A stretch of 64,000 bases of DNA. It comes from Bacillus sp. P14.5. GTDB lineage: Bacteria; Bacillota; Bacilli; Bacillales; Bacillaceae_B. The stretch spans positions 62,001-126,000 of the forward strand of contig NZ_NIJF01000017.1 in the NCBI RefSeq assembly GCF_003316765.1. The letters are read 5' to 3'. Position numbers and translations under genes: made by a program. Of this stretch, positions 13,391 through 23,429 are shown piece after piece (positions within the stretch are counted from its first letter, which is position 1; each line of letters starts with the position of its first letter). The notes under the pieces were generated by a model. The model saw only the letters and a program-made list of their open reading frames with translations. It did not search any database and had not been told where the DNA came from.

Positions 13391-13792
13391 TTAACGAAGC
13401 CATTTAACTGTATCGATTTTTGTACCTTCTTCTGAAGAAGAACTTATAGTGAACTCGTCCATGATTCTCCTTACACCAGGAAGACCTGCACCCAAGCCGC
13501 CGGAAGTGGAGTATCCGATTTCCATCACTTTTTGAATATCAATGATTCCTGGCCCTGAATCAGCAGCATAGATCCTGATTCCGGTTCGCGTACAATTTTG
13601 ATGCTTATAGAGGATGATCTGCCCCTGGTTGGCATATAAATAGAGGTTTCTGGCCAATTCGCTGACAACCGTGATAATCCTTGTCTGATCAACTGTGCTG
13701 AAACCAAATTCTTTTGCAAAGCTCCGCGCAAAATTTCTGGCTGCCGCAATATCTTTTACATCCATGATAACTATCGTTGCCAACGCTTCCAT
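13391..13792 (-). CDS. RsbT-like GHKL serine/threonine kinase (anti-sigma regulatory factor family)
   Basis: 133 residues, the same length as RsbT, with AGGAGG before the ATG. The ATP site is complete: N-box TVVSELARNLYLYA, G1 box ADSGPGI, and G2 box GLGAGLPGVRR. Proteins of this kind phosphorylate STAS-domain antagonists or switch phosphatases such as RsbU. The gene is alone, without rsbR, rsbS or rsbU partners, so it is likely a paralog with a different partner. It is divergent from the XRE-PAS gene at 14021, 228 bases apart, with that gene's operator-like palindrome in the gap. Confidence 0.88.
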   Translation of the reverse strand: MEALATIVIMDVKDIAAARNFARSFAKEFGFSTVDQTRIITVVSELARNLYLYANQGQIILYKHQNCTRTGIRIYAADSGPGIIDIQKVMEIGYSTSGGLGAGLPGVRRIMDEFTISSSSEEGTKIDTVKWLR

Positions 13793-13957
13793 TTTATCCC
13801 TCCTAAGTATAAATCAAATGATTGAGTCAATGAGCTTTTGGAAACCACAGTGTAAAAAGGGATAAACTACTATTTTTTGGTGAAAAGAGTCGTATTGTGT
13901 GAGCACGAACAGTATATTAAACTAAGGTTAACATAAGGAATCTTCCATTAAACCTAT

Positions 13958-13973
13958 GTAGCAAACTAGCCAC
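13958..13973. promoter_or_regulatory. GTAGC-N6-GCCAC palindrome upstream of XRE-PAS gene 1
   Basis: It differs by one base from the two perfect GTGGC-N6-GCCAC sites upstream of the paralogous gene at 22905 and lies 48 bases before the start codon. It is a probable autoregulatory operator. Confidence 0.55.
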
Positions 13974-14020
13974 TTTCTAAATGTGTCTTTTTTGGAGAAA
14001 GTTTTAGTGGGGTGAGCAAA

Positions 14021-14551
14021 ATGAGAGAATGGCTCAAACAATTAAGAGAAGCGAAGGGGCTGACCCAGGAAAAAGTGGCCTCTGAATCATACATCAACAG
14101 AGCTTATTATTCTCAAATAGAGAATGGGGTACGCAACCCAAGCTTTGAAGTGGCTGCCAAAATAGCCGAAACGTTCGATATTGACCCCTCCCGTTTTTTC
14201 ATCGCAAAAGGAAGCGAACCGTTTGGACTGGCTTTGAGAAACGCACCGGTCATCATAGCTCACTGTGACCTGAACCTCAGGTATACGTGGTTTCATCATC
14301 CTCATGCTGCTTTCTCATCAGAAGTAGCTATAGGCAAAACAGATGAAGAACTTGGCTTGGCAAAGGGCATTGAAGAGCTTATCGAGTTAAAGAGGCTCAT
14401 CATCAAGGAAGGCCGTCCCCTGAAGAGAACCATCGTTTTCGAGCAGCCGAACGGTGAAAGGACCTATGTTGTATTCGGTGAACCATTACATAATGGAAGA
14501 GAAGAAATTAACGGGGTGGTTACCGTTTCCATGGATATTACATCTGAATAG
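14021..14551 (+). CDS. XRE-family HTH regulator with C-terminal PAS-like sensor (paralog 1)
   Basis: 176 residues from the ATG at 14021; GGGGTGAG is four bases upstream, and a GTG nine bases earlier overlaps that site. Residues 1-60 are an XRE helix-turn-helix (LREAKGLTQEKVASES, then YYSQIENGVRNPSFEVAAKIA). The rest (APVIIAHCDLNLRYTWFHHP, then AIGKTDEELG, then GVVTVSMDIT) reads as a PAS fold like those preceding histidine kinases, where the D-x-x-LRYTW phrase is characteristic. A ligand-sensing repressor is likely. It is clearly paralogous to the gene at 22905 and divergent from an RsbT-like kinase. Confidence 0.85.
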   Translation: MREWLKQLREAKGLTQEKVASESYINRAYYSQIENGVRNPSFEVAAKIAETFDIDPSRFFIAKGSEPFGLALRNAPVIIAHCDLNLRYTWFHHPHAAFSSEVAIGKTDEELGLAKGIEELIELKRLIIKEGRPLKRTIVFEQPNGERTYVVFGEPLHNGREEINGVVTVSMDITSE

Positions 14552-14589
14552 GAAGTGTGCCTGACGTTTTCCTGGAACCCCTGCATATA

Positions 14590-14638
14590 AAGCTTGTACT
14601 CAGAGATCATTAGCTGAACTCTAAGTACAAGCTTTTTT
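14590..14638 (+). terminator. Terminator of XRE-PAS gene 1
   Basis: AAGCTTGTACT and AGTACAAGCTT pair perfectly and are followed by TTTTT. Confidence 0.85.
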
Positions 14639-15055
14639 GTGTTGGGATTGAGTTAAAGGGGGGAGGGGGGCAGGGGGATCTTAGCTGCAGGCGTCCAGGA
14701 GTCCGTTTTACGATGTTAGGTGTCCTTCGAGCGCGGTTTGAGTGACCCGAAAAGTCTGTTTTTCATAGTTAGGTTTCCTTCGTGGCCCGTGTAATATTAT
14801 CCCGCTTCTTAAGCATTTCCCTTTTAATTGAGGAAGCTCTTTTCTTTCTTGATTGCATGAATATTTCGGATGAAATGTGGAGTCACCTTACTGAATCTTA
14901 ATACCCAGCAACAATCTTTGCGAAAGGCTATTTTATCCTCATCCACCATTTTCGTAGAAGGAGCGGAAATCCATTACTTTTAAGACAGCAACATTTTTTT
15001 GCGGAAACAGCTTTGCGAAAAGAAGCTGCTATAAAAATCTAAACATGAAGAAAAG
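14639..15055. other. Intergenic region without a gene
   Basis: No gene seen in 417 bases. Around 14955-14985 there is a short piece of the dispersed R1 repeat (GGAGCGGAAATCCATTAC), followed by sequence like that beside other R1 copies (TTTGCGAAAA). Confidence 0.6.
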
Positions 15056-15086
15056 AGAAAAAAACCCCGATGCAGCAGCAGCGGGG
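15056..15086 (-). terminator. Terminator of the 55-residue protein gene
   Basis: On the minus strand CCCCG and CGGGG flank a CTG-rich loop and are followed by seven T. Confidence 0.8.
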
Positions 15087-15097
15087 ATGTTTGTCTC

Positions 15098-15265
15098 TTA
15101 TTGTTTAACCAATTCTTCTTCAAAGAAGAAAGTAGTGGGATACTCTTTTACGATGTATGAGTATCTTTTCATGTTTTTAACATATTGTGATTTGATGATG
15201 GTGACAGATTCATTAGATGATTTAATGTTGACTTCATCCCCTACGTTGAATAGACATTTACCCAT
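15098..15265 (-). CDS. 55-residue conserved-looking small protein
   Basis: Starts at the ATG at 15265 with AAAGGATGAG upstream and ends just before a strong terminator. Sequence MGKCLFNVGDEVNIK, then SVTIIKSQYVKNMKRYSYIVKEY, is rich in beta-strand pattern and looks like a small SH3/KOW-like barrel (V-G-D-E-V motif). I do not recognise a named family. A plus-strand open frame over the same bases is antisense to it and lacks a ribosome site. Confidence 0.75.
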   Translation of the reverse strand: MGKCLFNVGDEVNIKSSNESVTIIKSQYVKNMKRYSYIVKEYPTTFFFEEELVKQ

Positions 15266-15399
15266 GATCTCATCCTTTCGTGTTTATTGGTATTGATAGC
15301 CATTGGCAAGTTTACTGTTGAAAATCGATAAGAGGAGAAATAAAGAAGGCAAGCCGATTATGCTTGCCTCTGTCTATTCTGTGGTGCATCAAATGAAGA

Positions 15400-15843
15400 T
15401 TAACCGCGTCTTCCGCCTCTGCCGCCGCGTTTCGTTTCCGTATTGCGCTTCAGTGACGTAAGATTTTCTTCGCTGGATTTGAGGAATTTAGCCATTTTAT
15501 CTTCGAAAGATTCTTTAGGCTTGAAGTTTCCTTTTGAGCGGAAATCTTTATTTGGTCTGCCGTCTCTTCCTTGGCGCGGAGGTCGTTTAGTGAAAGTTGA
15601 TCCTTCTGGTTTATCCACCGCTTTTTTGATTGACAAGGCAATTTTGCCCGCATTCTCACTAATTACCTTAACCTCAACTTCATCGCCTACTTTAAGATGA
15701 TCGTTAACATCTTTAACATAGCTGTCCGCCACCTCACTGATATGCACGAGACCGGTTGAGCCTTCGGGTAATTCCACGAATGCCCCAAAATTAGTGATAC
15801 CAGTTACTTTACCTTTAACCTTGCTGCCTATTTCGATTGCCAA
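15400..15843 (-). CDS. yabR: S1 domain RNA-binding protein YabR
   Basis: 147 residues from a TTG start with AAGGGGG nine bases upstream; no better ATG exists. Residues 1-75 are an S1 domain (GSKVKGKVTGITNFGAFVEL, then GLVHISEVADSYVKDVNDHLKVGDEV). A basic, Arg/Gly-rich tail ends RGGRGGRRG, and the phrase SFEDKMAKFLK precedes it, both as in B. subtilis YabR. In B. subtilis yabR lies beside divIC; here it is isolated. It probably binds RNA and ribosomes. The strong initial ribosome site with a weak start codon may limit output. Confidence 0.9.
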   Translation of the reverse strand: MAIEIGSKVKGKVTGITNFGAFVELPEGSTGLVHISEVADSYVKDVNDHLKVGDEVEVKVISENAGKIALSIKKAVDKPEGSTFTKRPPRQGRDGRPNKDFRSKGNFKPKESFEDKMAKFLKSSEENLTSLKRNTETKRGGRGGRRG

Positions 15844-16481
15844 AAAAAGTTCCCCCTTAATAATTGTAACAACACTTTATTATAACAAATATATCACATA
15901 ATATCTAATGGTGTTTCATGGCTATGTGATTAGATGGTGAAATTTTTAGCCTTCCCCCGATTGGCCAGCCGCTTAGAGCAGGCTGAGATTATGATTAACA
16001 CTTATTTACCAGGGACCTCTATATAAGGAGGAAGATTCCATTTAAGCCACAAGCTTTACTGGATTGGGAAGGACCGAAAACTTTGGATGTATTGTAACCT
16101 GTCTGAGAATAATTGGGCAATAAAGATATTATCGACTGACATGGTGTGAAATTCTATTGGCACACAAGGGGAATAGGGACTTACAGGTCTGATCAAGTTT
16201 TGAAATTGTTGACGTGGTGCTTGAACTGAATCCGATTCGGTCTGTGAGATAACCTGGACGGCTCCGTTAATTATGAGGTTAGGGGAGAAAGGGAATCTAT
16301 GTTAAGAAGAAAGTTGGATTATCCAACCAAGGAACTATTTGTAAAAATAGTGATAATTATTTTCAATTAGACATTGACAATGATTATCAATTAGAAGTAT
16401 TATAGGTTTGGGTTAAATGATAATGATTTTCAATATCAGTATCAGGTATCCCAAATTCAATGAAAGTTTCGGGGATTTACC
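15844..16481. other. Long intergenic region ending in the ycl promoter
   Basis: From 15950 to 16340 I see no gene and no clear repeat; short stretches have gene-like composition but no open frame with a ribosome site. From 16351 on it carries the Fur sites and promoter listed separately. Confidence 0.6.
16351..16432 (+). promoter_or_regulatory. Fur-regulated promoter of the ycl operon (three Fur boxes)
   Basis: Three 7-1-7 Fur sites are visible: TGATAATTATTTTCA (16351-16365), TGACAATGATTATCA (16375-16389) and TGATAATGATTTTCA (16418-16432). A promoter TTGACA (16374-16379), 18 bases, TATTAT (16398-16403) overlaps the second. Fur with iron would block polymerase directly and, with three sites, tightly. 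Confidence 0.88.
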
Positions 16482-17432
16482 ATGAAACAGAGATACCTTC
16501 TGACTGCACTCATCTTGCTGTCGCTTCTGTCATTATTTATAGGAGTGAGCAGCATAACGCCAATGGATTTGCTGGATATCCATTCTGAAGAAACACAAAT
16601 ATTCCTCATCAGCAGGCTGCCAAGATTGGCTGCAATCATTCTTGCGGGAGCCGGGATGAGTATTGCTGGATTGATCATGCAAAGCTTGAGCAGGAATAAA
16701 TTTGTTTCACCGACAACGGCCGGGACGCTGGATGCCACACGACTAGGTATTCTGGTTTCAATGATCTTGTTCGTGAATGCTTCCATGATTGAGAAGATGA
16801 TCGTCGCTTTTGTATTTGCGCTTGCCGGCACATTTTTATTTATGCAAATACTTGACCGGATCAAATTCAAGGATGCCGTTTTTATTCCGCTTGTAGGGCT
16901 GATGTTTGGGAATATCCTTTCCTCCATAACGACATTCTTTGCTTACAAATCCAATGTGATTCAGAACATGGCAGCATGGCTTCAAGGAGATTTCTCGCTG
17001 ATAATGAAGGGCCGGTATGAACTGCTATACATAAGTATCCCCATTATGATCATTGCTTATTTCTATGCTAACCGGTTTACCGTCGCGGGTATGGGAGAGG
17101 ATTTTTCAAAGAATCTGGGTGTGGGCTACCGAAGTGTCGTGAATTCGGGTCTTGTCCTGGTGGCTCTCATCACAGTATCCGTGGTTCTTACGGTAGGGAT
17201 GATTCCGTTCGTCGGATTGATCATACCGAATATCGTCTCCATCTATAAGGGAGACCACTTACAGAGGACATTGCCGCATACAGCCATGCTGGGAGCGGTC
17301 TTCCTGCTCGTCTGCGACATATTGGGCCGTATCATCATCTTTCCATATGAAATCACGATCAGTTTAATGGTCGGGGTGATTGGAAGCGCCATCTTCCTGT
17401 TCTTGTTATTTAGGAGGAAGGCATATGCGTAA
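16482..17432 (+). CDS. yclN: Petrobactin-type siderophore ABC permease YclN
   Basis: 316 residues, FecCD permease family, about nine or ten membrane helices. The family phrases RLPRLAAIILAGAGMSIAGLIMQ and VGMIPFVGLIIPNIVS (the ATPase-contact loop) are both present. Sequence and gene order match B. subtilis yclNOPQ, which imports petrobactin and related catecholates. It is the first gene of the operon behind a triple Fur-box promoter; yclO overlaps its end by 8 bases. It forms the channel with YclO. Confidence 0.92.
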   Translation: MKQRYLLTALILLSLLSLFIGVSSITPMDLLDIHSEETQIFLISRLPRLAAIILAGAGMSIAGLIMQSLSRNKFVSPTTAGTLDATRLGILVSMILFVNASMIEKMIVAFVFALAGTFLFMQILDRIKFKDAVFIPLVGLMFGNILSSITTFFAYKSNVIQNMAAWLQGDFSLIMKGRYELLYISIPIMIIAYFYANRFTVAGMGEDFSKNLGVGYRSVVNSGLVLVALITVSVVLTVGMIPFVGLIIPNIVSIYKGDHLQRTLPHTAMLGAVFLLVCDILGRIIIFPYEITISLMVGVIGSAIFLFLLFRRKAYA

Positions 17433-18378
17433 TCATTTCTGGAAGTTTACTATATTGATTGTTGTGGCCCTGTCACTTTGCGGACTCTATCTGTTTTATG
17501 AGTTGAATGGCAGCTATGATTATGCCCTGCCGAGGCGGGGGATCAAGCTGCTTGCCATGGTACTGACTGCCGCCGCAATTGCTTATTCAACGGTTGTGTT
17601 CCAAACGATTACCCATAACCGGATCCTGACTCCGAGCATTATGGGACTTGATTCACTTTACATGCTGATTCAGACGGTCATCATTTTCTTCCTGGGCTCG
17701 GGAAGTGTCATGGTCATCAATAAACAGGTGAACTTTTTCATCTCGACAGCGGTCATGATCCTTTTTGCCCTGCTGTTATATCAACTGTTCTTCCATAAAA
17801 GGAAACAGCCGATCTACTTTCTGCTGCTGGTAGGAATCATCCTGGGGACTTTCTTTGGATCGATCTCCACCTTTATGCAAGTGTTGATCGATCCCAACGA
17901 ATTCTTCAGTATACAAGATAAAATGTTTGCCAGTTTCAATAATGTAAGTGAGGAACTGGTTTGGCTGTCCCTGCTGCTGGTTGGAATCACCACTGCAATA
18001 GGGTGGCGGTCAATGAGCGAGTTGGATGTTGTCTCCCTTGGAAGGGAAACTGCAGTGAATCTGGGAGTTCCTTATGACAAGCTGGTTAAAAGGATGCTCG
18101 TCATCTCAGCAGTGCTCATTGCGATCTCGACTGCACTCGTGGGTCCGATCACCTTTTTTGGCTTGATTGTCGCGAATTTATCCTACCAGTTCTTTAACAC
18201 CTACAAACACACTTCCCTGGTAACGGGTGCAATTCTCATCAGCATCATTGCCCTGGTGGGGGGGCAGTGGGTTGTGGAAAGGATCTTTACCTTCTCTACG
18301 ACACTAAGTGTCATTGTGAACTTTATAGGCGGAATTTACTTTATCTACTTATTACTGAAGGAGAGCAGATCGTCATGA
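17425..18378 (+). CDS. yclO: Petrobactin-type siderophore ABC permease YclO
   Basis: 317 residues from the ATG at 17425, preceded by AGGAGG; it overlaps yclN by 8 bases. FecCD-type permease with many membrane helices, the early phrase NRILTPSIMGLDSLY (substrate-channel region) and the late ATPase-contact loop GPITFFGLIVANLSYQF. It pairs with YclN as a heterodimeric channel. The following ATPase gene starts four bases before its stop, showing translational coupling. Confidence 0.92.
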   Translation: MRNHFWKFTILIVVALSLCGLYLFYELNGSYDYALPRRGIKLLAMVLTAAAIAYSTVVFQTITHNRILTPSIMGLDSLYMLIQTVIIFFLGSGSVMVINKQVNFFISTAVMILFALLLYQLFFHKRKQPIYFLLLVGIILGTFFGSISTFMQVLIDPNEFFSIQDKMFASFNNVSEELVWLSLLLVGITTAIGWRSMSELDVVSLGRETAVNLGVPYDKLVKRMLVISAVLIAISTALVGPITFFGLIVANLSYQFFNTYKHTSLVTGAILISIIALVGGQWVVERIFTFSTTLSVIVNFIGGIYFIYLLLKESRSS

Positions 18379-19133
18379 TAAGCATAAAAGGTCTTTCGAA
18401 ATCATATGGGAAGAAAAAAGTCGTTGAAGATGTCAACGTCATCATCAAACGGGGTAATATTACTTCTTTTATCGGTCCAAATGGTGCAGGAAAGTCTACC
18501 CTGTTATCGATGGTCAGCCGCCTGATGGACAGTGACAGCGGTGAAGTTCTAGTTGATAATGACAACGTGAACAAAATGAAGTCCAACGATCTGGCCAAAA
18601 GGGTTTCGATCCTCAAACAGTCCAATTTCATGAATGTGAGGCTCACAGTGAAGGAGCTTGTCTCGTTCGGCAGGTTTCCATACTCTAAAGGGCGTCTGAC
18701 ACAAGAGGATGAAAAATTTGTAGATCAGGCAATTGACTACATGAATCTTCGTGAATTAGAGAATCGGTTCATGGATGAGTTGTCGGGAGGGCAAAGGCAA
18801 AGGGCATTCATCGCCATGGTCATTGCACAGGATACCGACTACATCCTGCTGGATGAACCGCTGAATAATCTGGATATGAAGCACTCTGTCCAAATCATGA
18901 AGATGCTGCGGAAGCTCGTGGATGAACTGGGGAAAACAGTTGTCGTCGTCCTGCACGATATCAATTTTGCCTCCATCTATTCCGACAGAATTGTAGCCAT
19001 GAAGGATGGAAAGGTTGTCAAAGAAGGGCCGACCGAATCGATCATCCAGACCGAAGCCCTGAAAGAAATTTACGGAATGGATATCCCGATACAGGAAATG
19101 AACGACTGCAGGATTTGTGTTTATTTTAAATGA
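18375..19133 (+). CDS. yclP: Siderophore ABC transporter ATPase YclP
   Basis: 252 residues, identical in length to B. subtilis YclP. The start overlaps the yclO stop. Walker A GPNGAGKST, Q-loop LKQSN, signature LSGGQRQR, Walker B YILLDEPLNNLD and H-loop VLHD are intact. It powers YclNO. The sequence between it and yclQ is expanded to about 160 bases by an inserted R1 repeat fragment, which is unusual within such an operon. Confidence 0.93.
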   Translation: MISIKGLSKSYGKKKVVEDVNVIIKRGNITSFIGPNGAGKSTLLSMVSRLMDSDSGEVLVDNDNVNKMKSNDLAKRVSILKQSNFMNVRLTVKELVSFGRFPYSKGRLTQEDEKFVDQAIDYMNLRELENRFMDELSGGQRQRAFIAMVIAQDTDYILLDEPLNNLDMKHSVQIMKMLRKLVDELGKTVVVVLHDINFASIYSDRIVAMKDGKVVKEGPTESIIQTEALKEIYGMDIPIQEMNDCRICVYFK

Positions 19134-19163
19134 TGTTGCAGTATAAATAGCTGCTGATTTCTA

Positions 19164-19222
19164 TTAGACGAGGAGGATCAGCGTCCGCCCCGCGGAGTCG
19201 TGCGTCTGGAACGAAAATCAAA
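19164..19222 (-). repeat. Partial R1 repeat inside the ycl operon
   Basis: GACGAGGAGGATCAGCGTCCGC, CCCGCGGAGTCGTGCGTCTGG and AACGAAAATC (given in parts) correspond to the last half of the R1 repeat, with decay at the end. It separates yclP from yclQ. Confidence 0.7.
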
Positions 19223-19294
19223 TACCCGTTTAAACACAACACCGTTTATTAACACTTACTAAAAAATTTAATCAAACCTAAGGAGATGGATATT

Positions 19295-20251
19295 ATGAAA
19301 AAATGGTCATTGTTAACAATCATGCTTTCAGTACTGCTGGTGCTTGCTGCCTGCGGTTCAAAAGAAGAGACTGCATCAAATGTCAAAAGTGCAAATGGTG
19401 AGGGAGAAGAAGCTTCTTCTGAACTGACGATCAAACATGAACTGGGTGAAGCAGTACTTGAGAAAAATCCTGAAAAAGTAGTTGTTTTCGATTTTGGTGT
19501 TCTGGATACATTGGATGAGCTAGGTGTTGAAGTAGCGGGTGTTCCTCAAGCTACAATCCCGCCATACCTTGAGAAGTATGCGGGCGAAGAGTATACAAAC
19601 GTAGGAAGTTTGAAAGAAGCGGATTTTGAAGCCATCCATGCGATGAAGCCGGACGTCATCTTCATTTCAGCACGTCAATCAGAAATGTATGATGAATATG
19701 CTGAAATCGCTCCAACCGTTTACATGGGCCTTGATTACTCTAACTACATGGAATCATTCACTAAAAACATGGAGACGATTGGGCAGATCTTTGATAAAGA
19801 AGAAGAAGTAAAAACAGAACTTGAAGAAGTTCAGGCGAAAATCGATTCTATTAAAGAAAAAGCGGAAGCAACAGAAGATAAAGCATTGATCGTCATGGGC
19901 AATGAAGGTGAAGTAAGTGCTTATGGACCGGAATCACGTTTTGGTATCATTCACGATGTATTCGGCTTCAAAGCAGCTGTTGAAGGCATCGAAAAATCAA
20001 CACATGGACAAAACGTAACTTTTGAATACATTGTGGAAAAGAACCCTGCCACACTATTCGTGATCGATCGTGATGCTGCATTTGATCCAAATGCAAGTGT
20101 GAAAGATTCTTTCGAGAATGAACTTGTTCAAAAAACAGACGCTTATAAAAATGGAAAAATCAATTATTTGAACGGCGGCCACTGGTACCTTTCCGGCGGC
20201 GGACTTCAATCTGTGAAGCAAATGGTTGAAGACGTAGAGGCTGGACTGTAA
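19295..20251 (+). CDS. yclQ: Petrobactin-binding lipoprotein YclQ
   Basis: 318 residues from the ATG at 19295 with AAGGAG nine bases before it. MKKWSLLTIMLSVLLVLAAC is a lipoprotein signal ending in a LAAC lipobox. The mature part is a class III periplasmic-binding fold: KVVVFDFGVLDTLDELGVEV at the start and PDVIFISARQSEMYDE mid-way, as in B. subtilis YclQ. It captures ferric petrobactin at the outer face and delivers it to YclNO. Its TAA stop overlaps the ATG of the next gene (TAATG). Confidence 0.93.
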   Translation: MKKWSLLTIMLSVLLVLAACGSKEETASNVKSANGEGEEASSELTIKHELGEAVLEKNPEKVVVFDFGVLDTLDELGVEVAGVPQATIPPYLEKYAGEEYTNVGSLKEADFEAIHAMKPDVIFISARQSEMYDEYAEIAPTVYMGLDYSNYMESFTKNMETIGQIFDKEEEVKTELEEVQAKIDSIKEKAEATEDKALIVMGNEGEVSAYGPESRFGIIHDVFGFKAAVEGIEKSTHGQNVTFEYIVEKNPATLFVIDRDAAFDPNASVKDSFENELVQKTDAYKNGKINYLNGGHWYLSGGGLQSVKQMVEDVEAGL

Positions 20252-20559
20252 TGTTTTATCAAGTTAAGAGGATTGTTGTAAAAGAAGGTGCGGCTTCTAA
20301 GGTCATAGAACGTTTCTCTGGTGAAGGCCTCATTGAAAAACAGCCTGGATTCATTGACTTCAAAGTACTTGAGAAGAAAGTCCGCCGCGGAGATGAAGAA
20401 GTCCTGGTCCTGGTGCAGTGGGAGTCAGAAGAGGCGTGGAAAAACTGGGAGAAGAGTCCGGAGCATATCGCTGGCCACAAAGCGAACGCAGGAAAGCCAA
20501 AACCGGACCACATTATTGATTCCGGACAAAATGTATATTATGTCAGGTCAGAAAAATGA
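20251..20559 (+). CDS. hmoA: HmoA-like heme-degrading monooxygenase (IsdG family)
   Basis: 102 residues in an ABM-type ferredoxin-like fold. The phrase RFSGEGLIEKQPGFIDFKVLEKKVRRGDEEVLVLVQWES (in part) and EHIAGHKANAGKPKP closely follow B. subtilis HmoA, including the histidine region expected to bind heme. HmoA opens the heme ring and releases iron. Its ATG overlaps the yclQ stop as TAATG, so translation is coupled to the siderophore-binding protein and both should be Fur-controlled. This pairing of heme degradation with petrobactin uptake is not the B. subtilis arrangement. Confidence 0.9.
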   Translation: MFYQVKRIVVKEGAASKVIERFSGEGLIEKQPGFIDFKVLEKKVRRGDEEVLVLVQWESEEAWKNWEKSPEHIAGHKANAGKPKPDHIIDSGQNVYYVRSEK

Positions 20560-20585
20560 TTACCGGCATTTTCATTGGAATATAA

Positions 20586-20632
20586 TTCAATAGGAAGAGC
20601 CTGCCTTTACAGGGCAGGCTCTTCCTATTGAA
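20586..20632 (+). terminator. Long hairpin ending the ycl-hmoA operon
   Basis: Perfect 20-bp stem (TTCAATAGGAAGAGCCTGCC and complement) with a 7-nt loop. There is no T tract after it, so it may also stabilise the 3' end. Confidence 0.8.
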
Positions 20633-20701
20633 AGTAAATGTGATATTTTATGGAGCAGGGGTAAACTGATAGTAAATGATTATTCTGAAAGGAGAAAGGT
20701 A

Positions 20702-21658
20702 ATGACGTATATTTTTCTAATCATCGGTTTCGCTTTATTAATCAAAGGAGCGGATTTCTTTGTCGAGGGTTCCTCAAAGATTGCCCAGGCACTTAAAGTG
20801 TCGCCATTATTAATCGGGTTGACCATCGTGGCGTTTGGAACAAGTTCTCCTGAAGCCACCGTCAGTATAGCTGCTGCTCTGGATGGAAGTGCTGGAGTGG
20901 CTTTGGGGAATGTCGTCGGGAGCAACATTTTCAATATAACGCTAGTTGTGGGATTGACGGCATTGATCAACCCGTTGAAAGTAGAAAATGAAACAATTCG
21001 GAAAGAGATTCCTTTCACCCTTGTCGCGAGTATCACTTTGCTGGTTGTCATTAGTGATATCAGCCTGCAATTTCTGAATGAAAATTTCATCAGCAGAGGA
21101 GACGGGTTCATCCTGCTGTTATTCTTTTCGATTTTTCTCTACTATATTTTTGAGGTTGCAAGGAAAAGTAGAGACGGGATTAAGGAGACAGAGACGGCTT
21201 CAGAACCGGTTTCATGGGGGAAGAATACTCTGCTGACTATTGCCGGTCTTGCTGCAATCATTTTTGGGGGAGATATCGTAGTCAATAACGCGACAGACAT
21301 CGCGCTGTCGTTCGGTATGAGTGAGACACTGGTGGGGTTGACGATTGTCGCTGTAGGGACTTCCCTGCCTGAACTGATAACCTCCATAACAGCAGCTATC
21401 AAAAAGCAAGCTGATATAGCGATTGGTAACATTGTGGGCAGCAATATTTTTAATATCTTATTTGTCTTGGGTGCTGCATCGGTCATTTCTCCTTTAGCAG
21501 TCGACAGCAAAATATTCATCGATGTAGTACTGATGATCATCCTAACAGGAGTTCTGCTCATCTTCTCAAGAACAAGCTTTAAAGTCGGAAAAGGGGAAGG
21601 GTCTTTCCTTGTTATTGCTTACTTGGCATATGCCGTATATATAATCATCCGGAATTGA
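20702..21658 (+). CDS. Calcium/sodium antiporter, CaCA family (YrbG-like)
   Basis: 318 residues with AAAGGAG before the ATG. Ten to eleven membrane helices in two inverted halves, each with the alpha-repeat ion site: VAFGTSSPEATVS with ALGNVVGSNIFNI in the first, and VAVGTSLPELITS with AIGNIVGSNIFNI in the second. These paired motifs are diagnostic. The protein exchanges Ca2+ (or K+) for Na+ or H+ across the membrane. It converges on the histidine kinase gene and shares a terminator with it. Confidence 0.93.
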   Translation: MTYIFLIIGFALLIKGADFFVEGSSKIAQALKVSPLLIGLTIVAFGTSSPEATVSIAAALDGSAGVALGNVVGSNIFNITLVVGLTALINPLKVENETIRKEIPFTLVASITLLVVISDISLQFLNENFISRGDGFILLLFFSIFLYYIFEVARKSRDGIKETETASEPVSWGKNTLLTIAGLAAIIFGGDIVVNNATDIALSFGMSETLVGLTIVAVGTSLPELITSITAAIKKQADIAIGNIVGSNIFNILFVLGAASVISPLAVDSKIFIDVVLMIILTGVLLIFSRTSFKVGKGEGSFLVIAYLAYAVYIIIRN

Positions 21659-21689
21659 AGAAGTGGAATTAATGGCCGCTGGATTAAAG

Positions 21690-21729
21690 AAATCACCCTC
21701 CCTTAAGGTGTATGAGGGAGGGCTTTTTC
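21690..21729. terminator. Shared terminator
   Basis: CCCTCCC and GGGAGGG form the stem, followed by CTTTTTC. It overlaps the last codons of the convergent histidine kinase gene. Confidence 0.65.
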
Positions 21730-22746
21730 AGAGGCCAGGGGCAGTGTGATCATAAAAGTGGTTCCTTGGCCTTCTTCACTATCAATATGAATAGCGCCAT
21801 TATGTTTCTTGATGATATTGAAGGAGACCATCAATCCAAGACCATTTCCCTTTTCTTTGCTGGTGAAAAATGGCTGTCCGATTTTGCTTAAATGATCTTT
21901 TGATATACCGCTGCCGTTATCTCTTATGTAGATGTATACATTTCGACTGTCTTTTTTTATAAGTATGCTGATTCTGCCATTGTTCTTAATAGCTTCAGTC
22001 CCGTTTATTAGTATATTAAGGAGGACCTGCTTTAGCTGTGTCTTGCTTCCAGTTATCCCGATGTAAGTTTCAAGCGTTTCTAACTCGATGTTAATGTTCC
22101 TCTTGAACGCTTGTGCACTTGAAAAATTGACGGCTTCTCTGACGATATCCACTATATTTAATTGGCTGAAATGAGCTTCTTGGGGTCTGGAAAAGTATAA
22201 TAATTCATTGGTTATCTCTTCTATCTGCTTCAGTTCCTCCAGGACTATTTCGATGTATTCGGTTTGGGGGTAGCTTCTCATCAATTGAAGGAAGCCTTTC
22301 ATTGCAGTAAGCGGATTGCGGATTTCATGGACAATTCCGGAAGCCAGTTCTCCTACAAGAGAAAGCTTTTCGGACTGCCGAAGTAGTTCTTCATTCTTTT
22401 TAACAGAAGATAAGTCCCGGATGACTGCCTGGACCAAAATATCACCGTCATGGATGAAAGGAGCAGTTATGACTTCGACGTCGACTAATTGGTTGTCAAA
22501 ACGAGCCATTTTATGCTGGGTGAAAGATGACATCTCGCCATTCTTTATCTTAAACAAATGAGATAGTCCCAGCTCTCTGAACGGGTGATGAAAAAACGTA
22601 AGAATGTTTTCACCGATTACTTCTTCTTGAAGTCCAAGAAGGCGCATGAAAGCCCGGTTTGCATATACTATACTTCCGGAGTTCAGTATAACTTTTGCAT
22701 CTGTACTTTTATCGTTAACTAGGGAAAAATCGAAGAGCTTGCTCAT
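21703..22746 (-). CDS. PAS-domain histidine kinase of the sporulation-kinase type
   Basis: 347 residues with GGAGGGG before the ATG; no membrane segments, so cytosolic. One PAS domain (residues about 8-115), then a HisKA domain with the phospho-acceptor in ELASGIVHEIRNPLTAMKGF (in parts), then the ATPase with N-box LKQVLLNILINGTEAI, G1 DNGSGI, F-box PFFTSKEKGNGLGL. The layout resembles KinE/KinA-like kinases feeding Spo0F. No response regulator is adjacent, an orphan as is usual for that group. It is divergent from XRE-PAS gene 2, with two palindromic operators in the gap, so that regulator probably controls it. Confidence 0.92.
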   Translation of the reverse strand: MSKLFDFSLVNDKSTDAKVILNSGSIVYANRAFMRLLGLQEEVIGENILTFFHHPFRELGLSHLFKIKNGEMSSFTQHKMARFDNQLVDVEVITAPFIHDGDILVQAVIRDLSSVKKNEELLRQSEKLSLVGELASGIVHEIRNPLTAMKGFLQLMRSYPQTEYIEIVLEELKQIEEITNELLYFSRPQEAHFSQLNIVDIVREAVNFSSAQAFKRNINIELETLETYIGITGSKTQLKQVLLNILINGTEAIKNNGRISILIKKDSRNVYIYIRDNGSGISKDHLSKIGQPFFTSKEKGNGLGLMVSFNIIKKHNGAIHIDSEEGQGTTFMITLPLASEKALPHTP

Positions 22747-22804
22747 TAAATCCCCTCCGACTATATTTTACCATGTATGGAAGAGATGGGAATGCCGGTT
22801 GATT

Positions 22805-22820
22805 GTGGCAAAAATGCCAC
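22805..22820. promoter_or_regulatory. Operator-like palindrome GTGGC-N6-GCCAC, site A
   Basis: Perfect palindrome centred at 22812.5 in the divergent kinase/XRE-PAS gap. It lies in the spacer of a plus-strand promoter TTGTGG (22803-22808), 17 bases, TATAAA (22826-22831). Confidence 0.7.
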
Positions 22821-22856
22821 GTGACTATAAATTAGTATAAATACATAATCTAAAGT

Positions 22857-22872
22857 GTGGCTTAATAGCCAC
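22857..22872. promoter_or_regulatory. Operator-like palindrome GTGGC-N6-GCCAC, site B
   Basis: Second perfect copy, centred exactly 52 bases (five helical turns) from site A and 33 bases before the regulator's start codon. A dimer on each site could loop or cooperate. Confidence 0.7.
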
Positions 22873-22904
22873 ATTATTGAATGAATGGAAAGGTTGTTTG
22901 CTAT

Positions 22905-23429
22905 ATGCCCAAAAGATCTTGGTTGATTACATTGAGAAAAGAGAGAAATTATACTCAAAAACAGGTCGCTGAACAGGCTTTTATTGACCGCTCTTATTAT
23001 GCACAAATTGAAAATGGGGAGCGAAAGCCTGGTGAAGATGTCGCCAAGAAAATAGCAAATATCCTGGAATTTCATTATTCTGCCTTTTCAATGGATGAAA
23101 ATCCTTTTTACTTCTCCTTAAATAATTCACCCATGATTCTGGCTCACTGCGATACCTCACTCAAATATACCTGGATTTATAATCCTCACCCTGATTTTGA
23201 ACCTGAGAAGGTCATAGGAAAAACAGATACAGAAATCGATGATAATGAAGGCACACGGTCTTTGGAAAAGTTAAAGCAGGATGTACTGGACCTGAAGGCT
23301 TCTGTGCGCAGGAAGATAGATTTTCCGTTATCAAATGGATCCCTGTCCTATGATGTCTTCGCACAGCCGCTGAGGAATGATGACGATCAGATCATTGGCG
23401 TGGCGACCTCCTCCACAGAACTGGAATAG
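22905..23429 (+). CDS. XRE-family HTH regulator with C-terminal PAS-like sensor (paralog 2)
   Basis: 174 residues. The ATG at 22905 (GGAAAGG 11 bases upstream) is chosen over one eight codons earlier because it aligns with paralog 1. The HTH spans about 5-60 (TLRKERNYTQKQVAEQAF, then YYAQIENGERKPGEDVAKKIA); the PAS-like part has SPMILAHCDTSLKYTWIYNP, VIGKTDTEID and IIGVATSSTE. Paralog 1 has the matching APVIIAHCDLNLRYTWFHHP and AIGKTDEE. It is divergent from a histidine kinase, with two perfect palindromes between, and probably represses both genes until its ligand is sensed. Confidence 0.85.
   Translation: MPKRSWLITLRKERNYTQKQVAEQAFIDRSYYAQIENGERKPGEDVAKKIANILEFHYSAFSMDENPFYFSLNNSPMILAHCDTSLKYTWIYNPHPDFEPEKVIGKTDTEIDDNEGTRSLEKLKQDVLDLKASVRRKIDFPLSNGSLSYDVFAQPLRNDDDQIIGVATSSTELE

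Follow-up and report, generated by a model that had tools for sequence, protein, structure and literature searches.

A family of XRE-PAS regulators with a conserved palindrome beside modulators of Spo0A and sigma-B in the Bacillales

Lambda cI acting at the promoter PRM exemplifies the class II activator layout, in which the operator abuts a poor -35 hexamer and stands at a fixed distance from a good -10. RsbT and RsbR feed the input of sigma-B. In Bacillus subtilis, Sda and Spo0E lower the level of phosphorylated Spo0A (Spo0A~P) and kinases raise it, according to excerpts of two papers (PMC12112137, PMC8749435). In environmental Bacillales beyond this species, the kinases and inhibitors that shape the signal input of Spo0A are known, their transcriptional control much less so. 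Here we analyse a stretch of 64,000 nucleotides from Bacillus sp. P14.5 (GCF_003316765.1, contig NZ_NIJF01000017.1, positions 62,001 to 126,000), hereafter the window, which holds two genes for regulators with an XRE-type helix-turn-helix (HTH) domain followed by a PAS domain. One is divergent from a stand-alone paralog of the RsbT gene (rsbT2) and the other from the gene of an orphan kinase of the sporulation type. Based on family-wide comparison, we consider it rather probable that such XRE-PAS proteins are one-component activators which, from a palindrome of their own, act on class II promoters of genes that set Spo0A~P or the input of sigma-B.

The XRE-PAS regulators and their palindrome

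Regulator 1 (14021-14551, + strand, P0001, 176 amino acids), divergent from rsbT2, and regulator 2 (22905-23429, + strand, P0002, 174 amino acids), divergent from the kinase gene, are 41% identical over 172 columns. The Pfam model HTH_3 matches them with 63.4 and 50.5 bits, above its cut-off of 23 bits, which places both in the XRE/Cro-CI class. PAS_4 slightly exceeds its cut-off of 23.1 bits in regulator 1 (23.5 bits) and stays under it in regulator 2 (19.5 bits). For the latter, the AlphaFold2 model (pLDDT 93.9) predicts with high confidence a PAS fold over residues 64-174. An earlier note on this DNA, made from the letters alone, had claimed two genes of one HTH plus PAS-like build; with their coordinates verified, both prove real and alike, and the fold prediction which that note had named as a check returned the PAS fold it expected. 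When the PAS domain alone was compared with plasmids, three haloarchaeal records were retrieved (NZ_CP100757.1, NZ_CP100446.1 and NC_013744.1, 32-39% identity).

Both genes are diverged paralogs within an XRE-PAS family of Bacillales, and the relatives are Rossellomorea. A recent tandem duplication was considered and rejected, the two regulators lying in different clades of the tree (genomes, contigs and loci of our collection are numbered G, C and L, G000 being the present genome). Regulator 1 groups with two further RsbT-linked regulators (G016b and L138), and regulator 2 has orthologs beside a related divergent kinase in four relatives, the match being only partial in L065. In G016, the orthologs of both regulators stand 3.3 kb apart. 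A family match was found in 25 of the 36 genomes of the genus and in 60 of the order's 397, with the HTH alone matching in 12; named carriers include Halobacillus, Pontibacillus, Thalassobacillus, Virgibacillus, Fictibacillus, Alkalihalobacterium and one Paenibacillus.

We collected 116 family loci, of which 74 are distinct at 97% identity. This set includes 39 matches fetched from outside the genus, HTH-only or partial matches of the order-wide search being left out; three partial or weak matches (L104, L107, L108) were excluded from all counts, and L098, with a broken frame, was kept in the operator count and excluded from the tree. The 250 base pairs upstream of each gene were scanned for GTGGC-N5/6-GCCAC, with 1480 dinucleotide shuffles of the same stretches as control. 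Nine or ten of the ten bases are matched upstream of 39 of the 74 distinct loci against 2/1480 shuffles, and at least eight upstream of 58 against 47/1480. The operator which the earlier note had proposed as shared is therefore kept across orthologs. Moreover, the arms co-vary in two Rossellomorea clades, reading GTGTC/GACAC in one and GTGAC/GTCAC as well as GTGCC/GGCAC in the other, and residues of the HTH track them: DRSYYAQ or related sequences go with GTGGC, ERSYYAQ with GTGTC, and DRSYYSK with GTGAC and GTGCC, a correlation over few clades and not an independent test. Judging from these comparisons, the palindrome is very likely the XRE-PAS family's own operator.

A Paenibacillus silviterrae homolog (L098, 8001-8520) carries a perfect operator, GTGGCAAACGAGCCAC, before a frame that is seemingly broken, its first open stretch being 61 codons.

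Within the window, predicted operator A (13958-13973, GTAGCAAACTAGCCAC) has one mismatch to GTGGC-N6-GCCAC. Predicted operators B1 (22805-22820, GTGGCAAAAATGCCAC) and B2 (22857-22872, GTGGCTTAATAGCCAC) are perfect and start exactly 52 bases apart, as the earlier note had read them; the -10 of regulator 2 follows B1 at 23 nucleotides (nt), and B2 covers about +2 to +17 of that gene if the inferred transcription start is right. All five group 1 loci (regulator 2 type) have a perfect site at the position of B1, and the spacing from B1 to B2 is 52 bases in four of them and 54 in the remaining one. The window alone holds 14 sites with up to two mismatches against 13.0 expected, which is chance level, and the motif is judged real because of its conservation across species, not because of the window.

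Perfect N6 sites in the 4.87 Mb genome are B1 and B2 only, and the one perfect N5 site lies within a reading frame. With up to one mismatch, 34 N6 and 30 N5 sites were counted, against 63 and 49 for reversed-pattern controls. Enrichment is absent in all four genomes counted, so that the palindrome does not serve as a general site. No sign of a broad regulon was seen in the present genome, the scan which the earlier note had suggested yielding fewer sites than its control. A simple open reading frame (ORF) test of 40 of the 64 one-mismatch sites placed 30 within a reading frame and 10 outside, the latter being the three operators described here, a site before an AbrB paralog (abrB2, see below) and six others (L006, L174, L175, L176, L185 and L201). 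A strict promoter-phased pattern, GCCAC-N22/23-TATNAT, which overlooks the CATAAT and TATGTT hexamers of both window loci, gave 12 matches genome-wide against 5 in the control, and only at abrB2 does the second half-site match at least four of five bases. The promoter-phased sites seen in this genome are the local ones and the one before the abrB paralog. We also considered operator control of this genome's own Sda and Spo0E genes and saw no sign of it in either scan: the four Sda genes have no site with up to one mismatch within 10 kb by coordinates, and at the four Spo0E loci scanned the best site matches 8/10 bases.

Promoter geometry and partner genes

Counted outward from the edge of the operator, -10-like hexamers cluster 23 nt toward the regulator (16/63 sites) and 22 nt in the direction away from it (13/63). 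Fourteen of 26 representatives have a -10 with five or six matches at 22-23 nt; other pairs of adjacent offsets average 1.7 and reach 6 at most. Hexamers at -35 spacing match TTGACA at a mean of 2.3 of six positions over 15 groups, some of them close kin, against 2.6 for random sequence. A class II activator layout, with a non-consensus -35 directly next to the site and the -10 at constant spacing, is thus found in 14/26; regulator 2, L138 and the clades without a phased -10 are exceptions.

A promoter scan of the region between regulator 2 and the kinase gene found two promoters against 0.8 in shuffles. The predicted promoter of regulator 2, GTGACT-17-CATAAT (22821-22849, + strand), keeps its -10 phase in group 1. 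That of the kinase, TTCCCA-16-TAAAAT (22765-22792, - strand), has TG before the second hexamer, and B1 lies 34 nt upstream of its -10; a stretch at this promoter, GGTAAAATATA, is shared by four of the five loci of group 1, L065 being the exception. The scan between rsbT2 and regulator 1 found nothing. A candidate -10 of rsbT2, TATGTT (13930-13935, - strand), stands there 22 nt from operator A, where G033 and G034 have TATGAT.

As partners we counted kinase, RsbT-like, RsbR-like STAS, Sda, Spo0E and one SpoVR gene, adjacent to the regulator or within 1 kb. A recognised modulator of the Spo0A or sigma-B pathways stands at 54 of the 73 distinct members (52 labelled for the tree, plus L092 and L143, whose STAS neighbours were found later by BLAST), and 19 have no recognised partner. 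Sda lies within 1 kb of 19/74 regulators and Spo0E of 4/74, together 23/74, each being encoded by four genes in this genome; no profile match to either was found beyond 1 kb in flanks of up to about 4 kb per side. Thirteen of the Sda neighbours were confirmed by Pfam and six by a profile built from such sequences, all four Spo0E neighbours were confirmed by Pfam, and for the remaining partners Pfam was run on one or a few of each clade, to which BLAST assigned the others. Eleven partner labels need 12 changes on the tree, indicating that the partner was swapped repeatedly. A phased -10 is directed at the regulator-kinase operon in group 2 (a Rossellomorea clade) and at the RsbR-like STAS gene in group 3 (another Rossellomorea clade). 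It faces Spo0E in L067 of Thalassobacillus and L068 of Salimicrobium, the palindrome of L068 being a variant, and Sda in L070 of Pontibacillus and L089 of Virgibacillus, the hexamer of L089 being weaker. What recurs beside the regulators is hence not the GHKL fold as such but a modulator, either of the Spo0A phosphorelay or of the sigma-B stressosome. The earlier note had expected a recurrent GHKL neighbour and a link to stress or sporulation signalling; the link holds, whereas GHKL as the partner class does not, since Sda, Spo0E and STAS genes also recur.

Other small genes recur beside family members. In L140, L147 and L149, a 55-residue protein without Pfam match (one copy scanned) is encoded divergently from the regulator, TAAAAT standing 22 nt away from the operator, and makes a candidate new modulator; by eye, a similar frame lies upstream in L088. 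A 60-residue protein, likewise without Pfam match (one copy scanned), is encoded downstream of the regulator in three distinct loci (L097, L099 and L164). In the Halobacillus-type clade (L081, L091, L135, L139 and relatives), the gene divergent from the regulator encodes about 203-205 residues, and most members, L091 not among them, have Sda downstream.

Operators are also found without an adjacent regulator. An intergenic site, GTTGCTTATTTGCCAC, precedes abrB2 (L193, G000:C31:13526-14054), with TATCAT 23 nt on. The upstream operator-like block is identical in G000, G033 and G034; in the latter two TATGAT stands at 23 nt, and the distance to the gene and the flanks differ. Two AbrB copies of more than 80% identity were found only in G000, G016, G033 and G034 of the 36 genus genomes, all with the ortholog of regulator 2; G017 has this ortholog and one AbrB copy, in an assembly 84% complete. 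The AbrB copy on contig C44 of G016 has three operator-like sites upstream, and between such sites lies a broken HTH remnant of the XRE-PAS family (L253, about 1957-2130; 45% identity over 51 columns), while no operator-like site was found upstream of the copy on C32. Likewise, the equivalent of operator A before rsbT2 is kept as GTAGCAAACCAGCCAC in G033 and G034, TATGAT standing 22 nt away; both genomes are without regulator 1, and no XRE-PAS match besides the ortholog of regulator 2 was found in them. The persistence of operators before abrB2 and rsbT2 without an adjacent regulator suggests action in trans, the simplest reading being that the remaining paralog serves these orphan operators. 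They are the best support for the shared operator that the earlier note had envisaged.

In G033 (contig C7, L065 and L252), the ortholog of regulator 2 aligns over residues 1-145 only, its divergent kinase aligns partly and the rsbT2 frame has 77 codons; this two-locus region may be decaying.

Proposed mechanism and competing explanations

We propose that a cytoplasmic signal would alter the C-terminal PAS domain, probably via a small molecule or a dimer rearrangement, and that the XRE domain would bind GTGGC-N5/6-GCCAC as a dimer. Because the operator lies just upstream of the -35 at promoters with a good -10 and mostly no proper -35, the bound regulator may recruit RNA polymerase by contact with sigma region 4, in the manner of lambda cI at PRM. 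The promoter served would be the regulator's own or the divergent one, and the gene so driven would set Spo0A~P or the input of sigma-B, and through them possibly cell fate: the orphan kinase and the RsbT paralog here, and Sda, Spo0E, an RsbR-like STAS protein or another kinase in other lineages. B1 would activate regulator 2, and B2, past the inferred start, would shut the gene at high dose, yielding a self-limiting level; B1 could additionally help the kinase promoter.

A number of observations weigh against this mechanism. Sixteen of the 74 loci match at no more than seven of ten bases, and of these three (L068, L171 and L172) have a variant palindrome and the other 13 none of that kind; single-arm departures occur in several clades (GTTGC/GCCAC at nine loci, GTTTC/GCCAC at two, GTGAC/GGCAC at one). 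The offset of 22-23 nt was spotted by eye before being counted; group 2 supplies three and group 3 two of the 26 representatives, the count becoming 11/23 with one per group, and a second pile of -10-like hexamers stands at 27 nt in the divergent direction (10/63). The Halobacillus-type clade that has Sda downstream shows no good -10 at 22-23 nt, nor do L171 and L172 at Spo0E, and the -10 of rsbT2 is weak in this genome (4/6). The rsbT2 frame of G033 stops after 77 codons, so the operator need not be useful there. The family itself is patchily distributed over the genus and order genomes counted above, and near copies inflate raw partner counts. Finally, the -35 of regulator 2 (GTGACT) matches 4/6 positions and that of L138 5/6, and both promoters could consequently fire alone and be repressed.

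This last point favours the main rival, autorepression, in which the XRE-PAS protein would block polymerase at the -35 until a PAS ligand releases it, switching on partner and regulator together. Repressors are common among small XRE proteins that have a palindrome at their own promoter, and B2 lies roughly where transcription of regulator 2 is inferred to begin. However, the -35 hexamers of most other phased promoters do not exceed random expectation, which activation accounts for and repression leaves unexplained, and the operator abuts the -35 without overlapping it, keeping a fixed 22-23 nt to the -10 whichever way the promoter faces. We therefore regard autorepression as rather unlikely. 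It could also be that autoregulation alone is real and that the partners are chance neighbours in signalling-rich regions: the partner class was defined after examples had been seen, kinases are common genes, and the 19 members without a recognised partner would fit. Against this, Sda and Spo0E are rare and yet lie close to 23 regulators, their profiles find no match further off in the flanks, and a phased -10 faces the partner in group 3, L067, L068, L070 and, weakly, L089, albeit not in the clade with Sda downstream. Chance association thus appears improbable.

A further explanation would assign the palindrome to another transcription factor controlling both loci, with the XRE-PAS proteins acting elsewhere; their binding is indeed something we infer, and the operators at abrB2 and rsbT2 adjoin no XRE-PAS gene. 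The motif nevertheless tracks the XRE-PAS gene family across the Bacillales regardless of the neighbour, is not enriched in any of the four genomes counted, and varies with the HTH residues, and the broken HTH remnant between the sites at the abrB gene of G016 belongs to the same family. We deem this explanation highly improbable. Returning to activation from the family's own operator, we suggest more tentatively that these elements may be plug-in cell-fate controllers, in which a PAS-XRE activator with its operator has repeatedly been attached to a kinase, Sda, Spo0E, RsbR, RsbT or AbrB, with orphan operators served in trans by a paralog. If so, each lineage would have its own way of coupling one kind of cytoplasmic signal to the sporulation decision, and regulator-operator pairs over Sda, Spo0E, kinases and stressosome proteins would make up a shared tier of control over the phosphorelay. 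The small proteins without a known family that are encoded under these operators, such as the 55-residue protein of L140, L147 and L149, would then be new modulators of the sporulation decision. The operator with its -10 phase offers a searchable handle for such modulators, and the family a sensor domain whose ligand can be sought directly.

Divergent neighbours and relation to known systems

The rsbT2 gene (13391-13792, - strand; HATPase_c_2, 34.5 bits), divergent from regulator 1, encodes a product 59% identical to RsbT of the rsbRSTU-V cluster of the same genome (G000:C42), where RsbR-, RsbS- and RsbU-like frames, read by eye, adjoin RsbT. By this identity it belongs to the stressosome switch kinases of the RsbT type, bearing out the RsbT-like label it had been given. 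It is called a paralog because it stands alone, outside an rsbRST operon, its neighbours in the ORF list being the divergent regulator and a gene without NCBIfam match. The kinase gene (21703-22746, - strand), divergent from regulator 2, encodes PAS, HisKA and HATPase_c domains according to Pfam, and its closest relative in the PDB is sporulation kinase B (3d36, E 5.5e-40). No response regulator stands beside it in the ORF list, read by eye, and HisKA and HATPase_c without an adjacent cognate response regulator make it a kinase of the phosphorelay sporulation type. Since the curated KinD model gives 179.9 bits, far under its cut-off of 775, we label it sporulation-type and not KinD. Each regulator is thus divergent from a gene of the GHKL fold, as first described. 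Between both loci (16482-20559), siderophore-uptake-like genes (two permeases, an ATPase and a binding protein) and a small monooxygenase-like gene were read by eye.

Among openly licensed papers, we found no description of the XRE-PAS family, its operator or its partner genes as sporulation regulators, in line with the earlier impression that this regulon is not known from the literature. SinR and SlrR form a sporulation-biofilm switch and share the cell-fate context; SinR is without a PAS domain and has a different operator. Their HTH is related, SinR entries being matched with E values of about 3e-5 to 7e-5 and not as the best rows, the SlrR model gives 27.2 bits, far under its cut-off of 250, and no SinI-like partner was noticed beside the XRE-PAS genes. 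VqmA, the DPO receptor of Vibrio cholerae, has its PAS domain first and a LuxR-type HTH last. Here an XRE HTH precedes the PAS domain, so that the family falls outside VqmA, and identity is too low to suggest the same ligand.

Lambda cI, at OR2 and PRM, and other class II regulators of the XRE type share with this family the XRE HTH and a palindrome that sits immediately before a mostly poor -35, with the -10 at a set distance; the second site of group 1 could limit the regulator's own synthesis. Unlike lambda cI, which carries the CI C-terminal domain, the present proteins have a PAS domain, and the family is chromosomal and stands beside sporulation and stress genes. In the sda checkpoint of B. 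subtilis, transcriptional control of the kinase inhibitor Sda feeds Spo0A, as an excerpt of PMC12112137 describes. The regulator of that checkpoint is DnaA, whereas we propose a dedicated regulator that adjoins its target and has an operator of its own. The single parts are of known kinds; what would be new is their union in a one-component regulator that probably activates, has its domains in an unusual order and recurs in a sporulation and stress setting.

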